Positions 2,176-47,900 of a stretch of 64,000 nucleotides of DNA are shown one piece after another. Source of the DNA: Calycina herbarum. Lineage: Eukaryota; Ascomycota; Leotiomycetes; Helotiales; Pezizellaceae. The translations under genes and the position numbers were made by a program. Each line of letters begins with the position of its first letter. Position 1 is the first letter of the stretch. Below the pieces are notes generated by a model. The model had not been told where the DNA came from. It worked only from the letters and a program-made list of their open reading frames with translations, and searched no databases. The stretch is taken from positions 248,001-312,000 of the forward strand of contig LLEY01000032.1 in the NCBI GenBank assembly GCA_001414485.1, read 5' to 3'.

Positions 2176-2323
2176 GCGGCTTTAGCTCACTTGGGAGAGC
2201 GCCAGACTGAAGTCCACTTCAGACATTGAAATCTGGAGGCACTGTGTTCGATGTAAGTATTCATTCCACAATCACCAATTAGGACCATCCATTCTAATAT
2301 ATTAAATAGCCACAGAAGCCGCA
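2176..2323 (+). tRNA. tRNA-Phe (GAA) with two introns, one of spliceosomal type
   Basis: The exons are 2176-2212, 2231-2252 and 2310-2323, which join to a 73-base tRNA. All four stems are perfect: acceptor GCGGCTT (2176-2182) with AAGCCGC (2316-2322), D stem GCTC/GAGC, anticodon stem CCAGA (2202-2206) with TCTGG (2232-2236), and T stem CTGTG (2242-2246) with CACAG (2311-2315). The anticodon GAA lies at 2209-2211 and the discriminator base is A2323. Intron 1 (2213-2230, 18 bases) follows the base 3' of the anticodon, the standard eukaryotic site. It holds CTTCAG (2217-2222), complementary to CTGAAG (2207-2212), the usual anticodon-intron pairing. Intron 2 (2253-2309, 57 bases) splits the seven-base T loop TTCGATC after its sixth base. 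It starts GTAAGT, has a CTAAT branch-like site at 2294-2298 and ends TAG, like the mRNA introns of this window. The tRNA identity is very firm; removal of intron 2 is inferred. Confidence 0.88.
2253..2309 (+). other. GT-AG intron-like insertion in the tRNA T loop
   Basis: This 57-base insertion carries a consensus fungal 5' splice site GTAAGT, a CTAAT branch-like sequence 11 bases before its end and a 3' TAG. Its length matches the mRNA introns nearby (46-60 bases). Taking it out restores a perfect T arm. It breaks the last part of the internal B box, since the conserved C of GTTCGATCC becomes T in the uninterrupted DNA. Confidence 0.75.
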
Positions 2324-2332
2324 ATTCTGCGA

Positions 2333-2350
2333 ACGGTAGATAACTACCGT
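2333..2350. other. Short perfect hairpin just after the tRNA
   Basis: ACGGTAG (2333-2339) and CTACCGT (2344-2350) form a seven-base-pair stem with an ATAA loop, ten bases after the tRNA 3' end. The role is unknown. It may affect 3' trailer processing. Confidence 0.4.
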
Positions 2351-2365
2351 CTTTCGAACAATATA

Positions 2366-2381
2366 TTTTTGCTAATTTTTT
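2366..2381 (+). terminator. Probable RNA polymerase III terminator runs
   Basis: T runs at 2366-2370 (T5) and 2376-2380 (T5) are the first clear oligo-T tracts after the tRNA. They would leave a 3' trailer of about 43 bases, longer than usual, which contains the hairpin at 2333-2350. Confidence 0.4.
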
Positions 2382-41971: not shown

Positions 41972-44900
41972 TCAAGAGGTCTCCAAAACAGCTCCTCGGA
42001 TGATCTCTCCAAGTTGACGGGCCTACAGATTTGTTAGATTGATATCGTTTTTAAAAAATAGGAATTGAAACTCACCAAGTCTCCTTTCATCATGCTGAAG
42101 TGGTTTCCTGGCATGTGTCTGGTTACTAGTCTTGAGCTATTCAAGTATTTGTCCCAAAGACCGGGTCCAAAGTCAGTTCGGTTGTCGAGCAAGAACTGAG
42201 CATGTCCATATGGGAAAGGATCTGGACGAGGATCTGTTGGAAGATGGCAAACACCATCTTCGCACCAGATTACCGTGGCAAAGGGGGATTTTTTGGAATC
42301 AATCACCTCAGCTGTGTAGTTAGATAGAGCATTAACCGAGGCAGCGAAATGAGGGAGAAGCCAAGATGGGATTTTAGAAAGGTCTCCGTCTCCAAGAAGT
42401 CCAATCTCAGCAAACCACTTATGAAGGGAGGATGGTAGTGGTTCGATGATATCTGGGCAAGGGGCATCGATGAGGATAAGTTGTTCGACAACATCACCAT
42501 TCTTGACCAACTGGTTGCTGGCCTCGAAAGCAATGACACCGCCGGCACTCCAACCCGCAAGAAGGTATGGTCCATTTGGTTGACGACGTTTGATTTCCTT
42601 GATGAAATGTGTAGCCATTCCCGTTACGCCACAATTGTATTCTTCAGGAACCTTCATGTACGGAGAGTTCAAACCCCACACGGCAACGTGGGGTGCAATG
42701 TCTGAGATTGTCGTATAGGAAGTTGCGGATCCACCTCCATCAGGTACCATCCAAAGATGCTTGGTAGCTCTTTTTGAGTTTCCTTGAAGGAGCACAGATG
42801 TTGCTAGACGCTCGGGTGCTGCAGATGTTGACTTGGCCGGTGCGGGCCGTGGTGGTGCGACCTTGGCAGGCACAATGGGTTTCTGGATTCCGACATTGAG
42901 TGATTTCTCAATTGCCTTGATGGAAGGATTGTTGGCGAGGAGGTCAGATGGGAGGGACATGCCAGTCTTTTCGCGCAGTATTCCAAGTATTGTCAAGCTC
43001 ATGAGTGAGTCCATGCCCATAGTGGAGAGATCATGGGCATCGATAATTTCATCAATTTCAACACCCATTTCGCCAGCGATGGTAGTTCGGATGACATTTT
43101 CGAGATCAGCGTCACCGACTTGACCACCAAGCAACTCCTTGCCAGACTCTGAGGCACTTTCATCCGGTGTTGTTACCTCCGTGTCCTGGTCCTCTTCCAA
43201 ATCGGGAGTAGTTTGATCATGACTCCCAGGTGAGTCCGAGCCTTCTGTGGATATGGAGTCCTTGCGCTCGTATTTGCTCAAAAATAGCTTGAATTCTCCA
43301 ATTGTTGGGTTGTCCGTGAATGCACTCGACGGAACATCAATCTCAAGCTCTTCGCGCAGTCTTCCACTAACAGTGAGCGACATGAGCGAGTCGCAACCAA
43401 GATCGGCGAATGCGATGTTATCCACAAGCTCATCTAGACCTACACCAATCTCAGTCGCCAGAATGTCCATAGCGCTGGAACAAACTGAGGTGAGCTTCTG
43501 GTTGACTCTTGAGATTGTCTTCATGGTAACCTGAGCAGTCTTCGATAGCTTTTTGCTGCTAGCCTTGGTTTGAATTGGTGCTGGGCGAGCAGCTGGTGCT
43601 GCTGCTCCAACGGGAGGCATGAGCATATTGAGGACTCTTCGTTGGATGCACTGGAACTTGAGGCCCCCAACCATGGCGATGATACGATCTCCGTCGAAAA
43701 CAAAGACGTCTCCAACAAGAACTTTCTTCTCAGCGGGCTGCATCCGTACATAAGATCGATATTGCTTGTCAGCAGAGAGGGGCTCTGCAATTCTCAAAGA
43801 TTGCCAACCGTGACTGATATAAACATTTTCCTTGGAGTCGACAGCATCCGAGCCGTTGACAATGAAGCCTGAGATGTGGGCAACGCTGTCAATCCAGTAT
43901 GGACTGCACTTGAAAGTGCCATCCTCTGGGGTTGTCTGGAAAATAACACGAGATGTAGCTTCCATGTTAGCGCTGTGAAGAATGACTTCCTCCATTCCCC
44001 TGTATCGTTTGTCATAATCGACGAGTGCAGCAAAGAGTTTGTAAGCCAAACCACGTCCGATCTTGTTCGCCTCGCCATCTGACTCAGCTTTCTTGAGCCA
44101 GTCGACACGAGACTGAATGAGATAGGATTGGCGCTGCCATTCCGAGAGATAGTCATCTTTGTTGCCAAACAAAACCTTGCAGTGAGCGTGCTCAACCTTG
44201 TCTTTGCCGGAGCCACTTGAGAAGACAAGGTCAGCAAATCCAAGACGTGTATCACAGGTTGCACTGAGTGTCAAGACTTGAGACTTTCCAGCAGGATTGG
44301 CGATCAATGATTTCGGCACTTCCATGTAATTGACATCCATCACGAGGTCCTTAACATTTGGTTCAACCAGCTTGTATGCATACTCGCAAACAGTCATTGC
44401 CATATCACCGTACAATGACGATGGACAAAGATATGCGCCATTGACAACATGACCGGTGACAAGAGGTCGAATGTCAGGTCTGGAGATATCTGTTTCAGTG
44501 ACTACCGTGGCCATTTTATCGTTGATGACTTCCTTGACGACGGTATGAATACTCGTCGTAGATAAGGTTGCTTTGGGCGCTGCCTCTGGGGCAGGAAGGG
44601 CGCCAGCTGGAGCGCGACCCTTGTTCAAACACCAATCACCCTCGTACTGGATCCAATAGTTCTTGTCATCGTAAGAATAGCTTGGGAGGTCAAGGAGGCG
44701 AACTGAATCATCGAAATCACGATGATATTCGTTCCAATCAATGTTGGCACCGGCCATCTGTAAAGCACACAAGCTGGAGCTAATCGTCTTGTATGTTTCT
44801 TCCTTTCGTCGAAGAGAGGGAGCAGTGATGGTGGTGGCACCAAAGGTAGCCTTTACCATGCCAGAGCAGACAGAGTGTGGCCCAACCTCAACCCAAACGG

Positions 44901-47900
44901 TCTTTTCGTCAATGAAACCGAGCTCCTGGGCAGATACCAAACCCCCAAGGAAGTTCACAGCATCCCGAGCGTGTCTTCTGAGGTAATTTGGCCCAACAGA
45001 GTGAGCATCAGTAATAGGACGACCCAAGAGCGGCGAGATCAAAGGAATGTTAGCCTTGTCGAATCGAACGAAGGAAGCAAGCTTCTCGAAATCATCCAAG
45101 AGAGGGTCAACTTGGGCTGAGTGGAATGCGAAAGGAACCTGAAGCTTCGTGCACTTGAAGCCTGCTTTTGAAAGTTGTTCTGCAAGATCAACCATTTCGG
45201 ATGCCTCACCAGCTAGTACAGTCTCCCGTGGACCGTTGATGCACGCGATGCTTAATCTGCCCGCCATTTCGGGAAGAGCCTCAGAGATGGTTTCAACTGA
45301 TCCCTGGATGGCAAGCATGGCGTGCGTATTTACAGTGCATTTCTCAACAAGTAACTTGGCCCTTGAACCAACCAGGAAAATTGTATCGCTCACTGAGAGC
45401 ACTCCAGAGACACAGAGAGCTGAATATTCGCCCAAGCTATGGCCAACAAGAACACTGGGAGTGATTCCCCAAGATTCCCATAAGCGAGCCATGGCAATCT
45501 CGAAGCAAACCATGCCAATCTGGACAAGGACAGGTGACAAATTAGACACATCCGGCTCACTTCTATCGATCAATGGTAAGAACGATGGGAAGCCATGGAT
45601 TTTGCTGATGCTGTCAAATTCTCTGACGTTGTCTCTGAACAAAGACGAGTTGGTATAGAGATCTTTTCCAAGCCCAGCGTAATGGGACCCTTGGCCAGTG
45701 AAAGTGAATGCAACCTTTGGTGGGGTTGGAAGAACAGGGACAAATGTATCATTCAACTTGCTCCTTAATGTTGCTTTGGCTTGCTCAGTGTCGGAAGCCG
45801 TTATGGTCATGCGCCAATTGTGTTGGATTCGACGAGCGGTGGTAGTGTAAGCAAGGTCTGAAATGATGGTTTTTGGGTTGGCTTCTAAGTAGTCAACCAA
45901 TCTAGAGGCGTTTCGGAACATTGCAGATTTGGACTTTGCCGTGACCGAGACAACATGCATTGGGCGAGGGTCAACACTAGCACTCTTGTACGCTGGGCCA
46001 TCTTCCAACAGGAGACCTGTGTTTCCACCAGCAGCGCTGAAGTTGTTGACAAAAACCCGGCGTGGCTGGCCAGCTCTTGCTCGAAGTGGAGTCTTGTGGA
46101 ACGCAATGTTGACGTTTCGCTCAGAGAGATCTTTGGGGAAGCCCTGGTTGATGACACCCTTGATTCCGACGTGGGGTGGAATTGCATTCTTTTGAAGCAT
46201 CATGAGGACCTTGATGAGAGCAGTCACTCCAGATGCAGCTTCACCGTGCCCGACATTTGCCTTTACGGCACCAAGGTAAAGAGGTTGTTCGGCACTTCGC
46301 TTCCGGTCTGCTGGGGCGAAGACATTTGTGACAGAAACCATTTCTGTGCCGTCTCCGGCTTGAGTTCCCGTTCCGTGCATCTCAACGTAGTCAACGTCAA
46401 GGGGGTCAACACCAGCTTTTCGAAGAATGGAACGATACAGCGCTTCTTGCGTGCCACCGTGGGGGTGGGTGATAGAAACAGCATCGGCAGAGTGATTCGT
46501 GGCTGATCCGAGAATGACAGCAAGAATGTTGTCTTTATCTGCTTGGGCATCCTCAAGACGCTTCACAATGATAGTACCAACACCGTCCGCTCTGCAGTAT
46601 CCATCTGCCTCGTTATCGAAAGTAGCGCATGGTCCTGTCTTCGAAAGGAATTGACCGCGACTCAGGCCAGCAAAAATGTCGCTGTTCGTCATACATGACA
46701 AGCCACCAACGATGGCTGTATCACAGTCTTTGGCCCATAGTGAAGTGCAAGCCAATTGAAGTGCTGCTGCGCTAGAAGAGCAAGCAGTGTCGACATTGAA
46801 AGAGGGGCCACTGAAACCAAAATGGTAATTGATTCTGCCAGGCCCAAAAGCTCTGACACCCCCAGTGATGAAATATGTGTCGACTTCCTGGGCAGCGTTA
46901 ATCTCACGCCAGTCATCAGAGGTTTGTCCGTAAAATGTGCCTATGCGGTCTAGTTTGGTCGAAGGAGTTCTGTTTGGTGTATAGCCAGACATTTCAAGAG
47001 CTTCGAATGCTGTCGAGAGTGCCATTCTTTGCATTGGATCTGTTTGGAAAGCCTCTCGTGGGGACATGTTGAAGAACCGGGGATCAAAAAGACCTGGGTT
47101 TTCAATCCAGCAGCCAAACGGTGTGTGACTTGTGTTCTTGGTCTTGCCTGTAGGATCAAAATGCGATTTGACCGGGAATCGGTCCTTTGGAACTTCTCTG
47201 TGAACAGAAAGTCCTTTCTCGAGAAGCTCCCAAAGTTTTTCATGGCTTGCGGCATCGGGAAATCTGCCGGCCATGCCAACAATCGCAAGCTTGCCAGTGC
47301 TAGAGAGTCCACTGCCGATATTTGGTGCGGAGTCATTACTGGAAAATGGTGCTCGTCGCAAAATGACTTCTAACTGGTTTTTTGTTTTGAGAAACTCCAC
47401 TACCGAGTTGGCGATGTCTGTTGGACCGATTGGAATGACCAAGCACCGGGAACCTTGGAGCTCTAAAAGTAGGGACCCATCTAAAATATTTTCGAGTCGC
47501 ACACATTTCGTCAGGATTTCGAGTGTGATCTGCTCGAACAACTCGAGTGCAGTTGAAGCATTAAAGGATGCGCCGGTGGAAGATATTAATTTGATGAAAG
47601 GTCGCGAGGATTTCAAGACTTCGGCGAGGCGGGAGTTACGAAGTCTTAGGATTTTCTCCACATGGAGATCTGGATGAAGGTGTGAGGCCTGGTAAGGGCC
47701 ATAAACGGGTAATGCCGCTGGCGTTGACGTAAAGGTCTCCGAGGCCCACAAATTTTTTAACGTAGATGGCGGCCCGCTGATTGAAATAGATGTTGGAGTG
47801 ACAGCACTGACATAAGCCTGGGCTGCAGGAGAAATACGCTGTGCAACTGTTAGAAAAGCTTTATCATGCGTAATCTAAAGATATACCTTTGACTCATTGA

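Follow-up and report, generated by a model that had tools for sequence, protein, structure and literature searches.

How a tRNA gene whose T loop is interrupted by a sequence resembling a messenger RNA intron could give rise to a mature tRNA is the question raised by a tRNA-Phe(GAA) gene in the window, the term used here for the whole stretch of 64,000 nucleotides that was analysed. An earlier note on this DNA had described the gene as carrying a 57-base insert in its T loop, with GTAAGT at one end, TAG at the other and CTAAT in between, as well as an 18-base anticodon intron, and had stated that removal of both would leave a 73-base tRNA with perfect stems. The coordinates of the insert were reproduced exactly, and the gene and its flank resolve into the following elements.

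2176..2212, + strand: tRNA-Phe exon 1, with the acceptor 5' strand, D arm, anticodon GAA and G37; the same bases in all five copies discussed below
2213..2230, + strand: ordinary anticodon intron at 37/38, 18 nt; 18, 19, 18, 18 and 18 nt across the five copies
2231..2252, + strand: tRNA-Phe exon 2, with the anticodon 3' strand, variable loop, T stem 5' strand and T loop TTCGAT
2253..2309, + strand: T-loop (59/60) intron of spliceosomal type, 57 nt, with GTAAGT, CTAAT 12 nt from the 3' end, and TAG; in 5/5 intact tRNA-Phe genes found, with an empty site in relic L011
2310..2323, + strand: tRNA-Phe exon 3, with C60, T stem 3' strand, acceptor 3' strand and A73
2326..2361, + strand: conserved trailer of TCTGCGAA, a 7-bp hairpin (2333-2339 / 2344-2350) and TTCGAAC; common to the five genes and the relic
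2366..2370, + strand: run of five T residues, presumed Pol III terminator; the first T4 run lies 35-43 nt past the tRNA in six Phe loci

Joining the three exons of the window gene yields 73 nt in which a recount found all 21 stem pairs to be formed (acceptor 7/7, D 4/4, anticodon 5/5, T 5/5), with a T loop of TTCGATC and the anticodon GAA, such that removal of the T-loop insert leaves a perfect cloverleaf. The insertion site at 59/60 is not the canonical position of fungal tRNA introns, which is 37/38, and a separate intron occupies that canonical position in the same gene; within this anticodon intron lies CTTCAG, whose complement, CTGAAG, is in the anticodon loop. ARAGORN called no tRNA in the 64-kb window in either its bacterial or its introns-allowed mode, and no Rfam family matched the window at gathering scores, as is expected of a gene with a split T arm. 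Elsewhere in the window, positions 42034-47874 of the minus strand hold a single 1946-aa open frame that looks, by eye, like a polyketide synthase. The window also holds a HET-domain gene, which fits an ascomycete, and encodes a fucose-specific-lectin-like protein with 53% identity to a protein of Hymenoscyphus fraxineus and 38% to one of Halenospora varia (five database matches, the others being its own, one at 85% and one at 44%). The fungus is accordingly assigned, as probable, to Helotiales.

Whether the insert is peculiar to a single locus can be judged from the assembly that contains the window, which comprises 68.8 Mb in 379 contigs. A DNA search of the whole assembly with the window gene located five intact tRNA-Phe(GAA) genes, one per contig on C246, C33, C359, C335 and C124, each with a T-loop insert at the identical 59/60 site (57, 59, 53, 56 and 59 nt, respectively) and all with identical exons (73/73 bases). 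Searching the assembly with the spliced sequence returned the same five genes and one further match of 30 bases. When a 23-base pattern for the uninterrupted T arm plus acceptor 3' strand was searched with a tolerance of 3 mismatches, the whole assembly returned one place, which is that 30-base match, the relic L011 (G000:C124:228148-228177); one of the five genes lies some 1.8 kb away. No intact tRNA-Phe gene without the insert was found in the assembly as searched. The comparison of all tRNA-Phe loci that the earlier note had recommended thus placed the insert in 5/5 full genes, and the insert-free copies that it had envisaged as a source of all mature tRNA are represented solely by a relic truncated at its 5' end, although an intact intronless gene may be absent from a possibly incomplete assembly. 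With five such genes in one assembly, the insert in the window is more than a chance GT-AG sequence.

Each of the five inserts carries the signals of a spliceosomal intron. The 5' end conforms to GTRNGY in every case, as GTAAGT in four genes and GTAAGC in the fifth, and the 3' end conforms to YAG (TAG in four, CAG in one). Branch sites of the form CTRAY (CTAAT, CTGAT, CTAAC, CTGAC and CTAAT) are each positioned 12 nt from the 3' end, and the T intron of L005 has a second CTAAT further upstream. When these signals were cut away and the remaining interiors compared in all 10 pairs, with 500 shuffles each, 7 pairs were indistinguishable from shuffles (p 0.154 to 0.994), L001/L002 were clearly related (p = 0), and L003/L004 (0.018) and L001/L003 (0.03) were marginal. 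In the diverged copies, interiors resemble shuffled sequence but the signals are retained, indicating that the signals persisted while the rest drifted. The 53-59 nt of the T introns fall within the 47-92 nt range of 25 putative protein-gene introns of the window, a set that bears on length and not on motifs, because the predictor itself demanded GTRNGH, CTRAY and AG and accepted introns on frame continuity only. By the same measure, CTRAY in these 25 introns lies 7-24 nt from the 3' end, the predictor having imposed 5-30 nt. Each intact nuclear tRNA-Phe(GAA) gene found therefore very probably combines an anticodon intron of 18-19 nt with a U2-type spliceosomal intron of 53-59 nt at 59/60 that the spliceosome would remove.

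Independent evidence for the intron borders comes from relic L011, which starts at tRNA base 44, retains the trailer hairpin and is devoid of the T intron. Across the predicted junction it reads TTCGATCC, an exact empty site, and the borders of the intron are thereby fixed independently. Together, the signals in 5/5 genes, the divergence of 7/10 interior pairs and the empty site argue, on sequence grounds, for the earlier suggestion of an mRNA-type intron. Exact pieces of the tRNA 5' half were absent from the same strand of the surrounding 5 kb, and assembly-wide that half was found in no locus but the five genes. We read the relic as a recently truncated sixth gene that had no T intron, in which case an intronless version once existed; it may also have arisen by truncated reverse transcription of a spliced precursor. 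The first bases of the relic are repeated next to it as an 11-base inverted copy, the arm starting 35 bases upstream, an arrangement that suggests a fold-back rearrangement.

The existence of the relic bears on the proposition that the five intact genes are non-functional and that a functional insert-free tRNA-Phe gene is simply absent from the assembly. An insert-free relic does suggest a former intronless gene, and an assembly in 379 contigs leaves room for a missing one. However, dead copies on five contigs should decay, whereas their exons are identical at 73/73 bases in all five; the trailer hairpin is maintained, with some compensatory changes, and splice signals are retained in introns whose interiors are drifting. 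Non-functionality of all five genes is accordingly regarded as highly improbable.

A different possibility is that the tRNA endonuclease excises the T-loop insert as an ectopic tRNA intron, in the style of Cyanidioschyzon merolae and archaea, and that the GT-AG borders of the insert are coincidental. Precedents for the position exist, as tRNA-Ile(UAU) of C. merolae has introns in the D, anticodon and T arms, with the T-arm intron at 53/54 (PMC9602550), and nucleomorph tRNAs of Guillardia theta also have T-arm introns, many of the ectopic introns of this organism being without a defined bulge-helix-bulge (BHB) motif (PMC3978253, PMC4090602). At the T-loop junction of the five genes, a BHB would have a central helix with only 2/4 pairs in every case, and no register from -4 to +4 gives a full central helix in any of the five genes, the best reaching 3/4. 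That best register, -4, has 3/4 central and 3/3 outer pairs in 5/5 genes, which favours the endonuclease, but forms just 0-1 of 3 inner pairs, and excision there would leave the wrong T loop. The predicted minimum-energy fold of the window precursor, as read, likewise contained no BHB motif. Because the anticodon introns of the same five genes also fail the strict BHB test, this test excludes an archaeal-type motif only, and not every endonuclease substrate. The eukaryotic endonuclease is considered to locate splice sites by their distance from the tRNA body (PMC4090602), a ruler mechanism with which failure of the anticodon introns is consistent and which counts against a cut in the T loop. 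Furthermore, the endonuclease would need none of the GTAAGY, fixed-distance CTRAY and YAG elements that are retained in 5/5 genes. Removal of the insert by the endonuclease thus appears very unlikely.

That the insert might splice itself, as the remnant of a group I or II intron, or might stay in the mature tRNA, has a negligible probability. Group I introns do occur in tRNA genes of bacteria, but a group I or group II core needs far more than the 53-59 nt available here, and no Rfam family was matched in the window at gathering scores. Retention, for its part, would leave a tRNA with a destroyed T loop.

With spliceosomal removal as the preferred explanation, the next issue is how such a gene could be transcribed. 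In all five genes the insert splits the B box GTTCGATCC after GTTCGAT, giving GTTCGATGT, so that no intact B box is present. The split box counts against the model, as it leaves TFIIIC binding unexplained. Internal TTTT carries a risk of Pol III termination, and none of the five T introns contains it, versus 6/22 putative mRNA introns of the window (the 25 minus 3 overlapping alternatives). The shuffle p for absence from all five T introns is about 0.045, mostly owing to L005, making this a weak hint of a constraint imposed by Pol III. Downstream, the first T4 run lies 35-43 nt from the tRNA in 6/6 Phe loci and behind the conserved hairpin. The corresponding median for 37 other nuclear tRNA predictions is 16 nt (range 2-73), with 7/37 at 42 nt or more, and hence the distance at the Phe loci is long but not unique.

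The trailer hairpin is paired in 41/42 cells across the six Phe loci, and 3 of its 7 pairs show changes on both sides, in one sequence each. Between 8 and 11 of 500 shuffles reached the observed percentage paired, number of both-side pairs and covariation score, and 258/500 reached the observed value for further pair types; given that the hairpin was proposed from the same six sequences, support from covariation is moderate. A pattern for the 5' half of the trailer had 11 matches in the assembly (7 in the backward control), of which 5 read CTGCGAAC and belong to tRNA-Phe loci, namely the relic and the four genes other than L004, which falls outside that pattern; the other 6 are unrelated. We considered whether TCTGCGAA, the hairpin and TTCGAAC might serve as an external replacement for the B box, and rejected this reading, as the intronless relic has the trailer too and conserved trailers are also found, by eye, at tRNA-His (2/2) and tRNA-Lys (4/4) genes with intact B boxes. 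Retention of the hairpin in the relic likewise means that it is not tied to the intron. By eye, the two tRNA-His trailers (L057/L058) form a hairpin with a TTTAATT loop and compensatory stems, GATGG/CCATC versus GGCGG/CCGTC, and the four tRNA-Lys trailers (3' flanks of L047-L050) each start with AATCCCCAA.

A search for T-loop introns in other tRNA genes of the assembly relied on two motifs. Pattern TTCGAHGTAAGT had 49 matches (41 in the backward control), 4 of which are tRNA-Phe genes. Scoring of the remaining 45 identified 6 in which a T stem of 4 or 5 pairs could form, including L117 (5-pair T stem, 5/7 acceptor pairs) and L113 (4-pair T stem and 7/7 acceptor pairs, all A/T), and no A-box-like motif accompanies any of the 6. 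Pattern GGTTCRANGTRNGT matched 38 times (43 in the control). Of 30 loci taken from these matches, 29 were scored, L149 being at a contig end; the 8 other places, left out of the scoring, include one on C369 already encountered as L128. The near misses in this set, L144 and L151 (5 T-stem pairs and 6/7 acceptor pairs) and L162 (4 and 7, respectively), all lack an A-box-like motif. Near misses of this kind are expected, because the acceptor score takes the maximum over many positions. Thus, for the motifs TTCGAHGTAAGT and GGTTCRANGTRNGT only, no T-loop intron was seen outside tRNA-Phe. Scans of viral contigs for relatives gave 0 and 1 match, and contigs of prokaryote genomes gave 1; the look-alikes L132 and L165, from viral and prokaryote contigs, were rejected as unrelated sequence.

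The wider set of tRNA genes in this assembly is incomplete, as the tRNA family search contributed 58 matches among the best 63 of 3182 candidates. ARAGORN was used to name 26 fetched loci, of which two (L068 and L069) yielded no gene; nuclear Ala, Asn, Asp, Cys, Glu, Pro, Thr and Tyr are absent among the names of the loci examined, and names of intron-bearing genes may err. Within this incomplete set, ARAGORN placed an intron in 26/37 nuclear tRNA predictions, including tRNA-Gly(GCC) and tRNA-His (27-29 nt). One pair of genes, tRNA-Ile(TAT) and tRNA-Asp(GTC) with encoded CCA (L014 and L022, G000:C367:111252-111414), looks bacterial or organellar rather than nuclear fungal. SRP RNA had one full-length match in the assembly.

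Two other structured RNAs of the same genome are each interrupted in one copy by a short intron of mRNA type, which adds to the case for a spliceosomal intron in tRNA-Phe. U6 had 5 matches among the best 47 of 4370 candidates, and one of these, L074 (G000:C90:226764-226858), contains a 51-nt intron of the form GTACGT...CTAAC...CAG. Its joined sequence is identical to that of the intronless copy L071 over 91 bases from GCCTTCGGGC on (0/91 differ); including the first 14 bases and the 3' end brings the difference to 11/124. The U6-like copies L071 and L075 (G000:C67:130580-130896) lie close together in opposite orientation, one of them diverged in its 5' part. U3 had 2 matches among the best 48 of 812 candidates: L134 (G000:C360:174154-174412), which is below the curated cut-off, contains an 84-nt intron of GTACGT...CTAAC...CAG after ACGATCTTACTT, and L133 (G000:C346:103811-104068) contains no intron. 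Such introns are known from fungi: a survey of U3 describes U3 and U6 as the sole small structured RNAs in which introns were known to be frequent, and names Sclerotinia and Botrytis, also Leotiomycetes, as having intron-bearing and intronless U3 copies in one genome (PMC5832005). The U6 intron of Schizosaccharomyces pombe is located near the catalytic nucleotides of U6 and is thought to derive from reverse splicing (PMC10484740). The T intron of tRNA-Phe may have originated through intron transfer or through reverse splicing, in which an excised intron would have inserted into a nuclear pre-tRNA. The presence of empty and filled copies in one genome, for tRNA-Phe with its relic, for U6 and for U3, makes intron gain by reverse splicing testable.

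From these observations we infer transcription by Pol III, spliceosomal splicing and an order of steps for tRNA-Phe. Pol III would transcribe the gene and stop at the T run behind the trailer hairpin; U1 would recognise GTAAGY and U2 CTRAY, and the spliceosome would excise the T-loop insert in the nucleus, rebuilding the T arm; TSEN and ligase would then take out the anticodon intron. The T arm is needed by RNase P, RNase Z, the enzymes that modify U54 and U55, and export factors. It is probable that all nuclear-encoded tRNA-Phe(GAA) is processed by the spliceosome as well as by the tRNA endonuclease, the spliceosome acting first because its step rebuilds the T arm. In C. merolae, the anticodon intron is supposed to be the last to go, after those of the D and T arms, and U55 is not modified by Pus4 as long as the T-arm intron remains (PMC9602550). 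By analogy, tRNA-Phe should lose its T intron first.

If this scheme is correct, spliceosomes would act on a short Pol III transcript besides their own U6, an essential tRNA would link translation to splicing, and the capacity to translate phenylalanine codons would be coupled to splicing activity. A tRNA family wholly dependent on the spliceosome would also break the separation between tRNA and mRNA splicing; a 2026 review classes tRNA splicing as independent of the spliceosome (PMC13149111). Among the open-access papers listed, none describes in its title or abstract opening a spliceosomal intron in a tRNA gene, in line with the remark of the earlier note that it knew of no described mRNA-type intron in a nuclear tRNA gene. 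As both ARAGORN and Rfam missed the gene, fungal genomes that seemingly lack a tRNA merit a search for split T arms.

Among the closest parallels to the tRNA-Phe genes are the U6 introns of S. pombe and other fungi, U2-type introns which, like the putative one of tRNA-Phe, lie within a short, structured Pol III RNA. U6, however, belongs to the spliceosome and tRNA-Phe does not, and in this genome the U6 intron is found in 1/5 matches, whereas the tRNA-Phe intron is found in 5/5 genes and splits an internal promoter element. Fungal U3 snoRNA introns are similar as short GT-AG introns of a structured non-coding RNA with mixed copies (PMC5832005), although U3 is not a tRNA. C. merolae resembles the present case in having introns in the anticodon loop and T arm of one tRNA, but the introns of its tRNA-Ile(UAU) have hBHBh' motifs (PMC9602550), while tRNA-Phe here has conserved spliceosomal signals and no BHB. 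The G. theta nucleomorph shares the T-arm position, with tRNA-Phe(GAA) among its two-intron genes, yet its ectopic introns are 3-24 nt long and section 5 of PMC4090602 makes no mention of GT, branch-site or AG signals. Canonical fungal introns at 37/38 are also present in each of the five genes, and the T-loop insert differs from them in its position, in being roughly three times as long and in carrying splice signals. Finally, insertions in the D or T arm of eukaryotic tRNA genes mostly affect one of many synonymous genes, and these are supposed to be pseudogenes (PMC4090602), whereas here the insert is found in all of the intact tRNA-Phe genes found.
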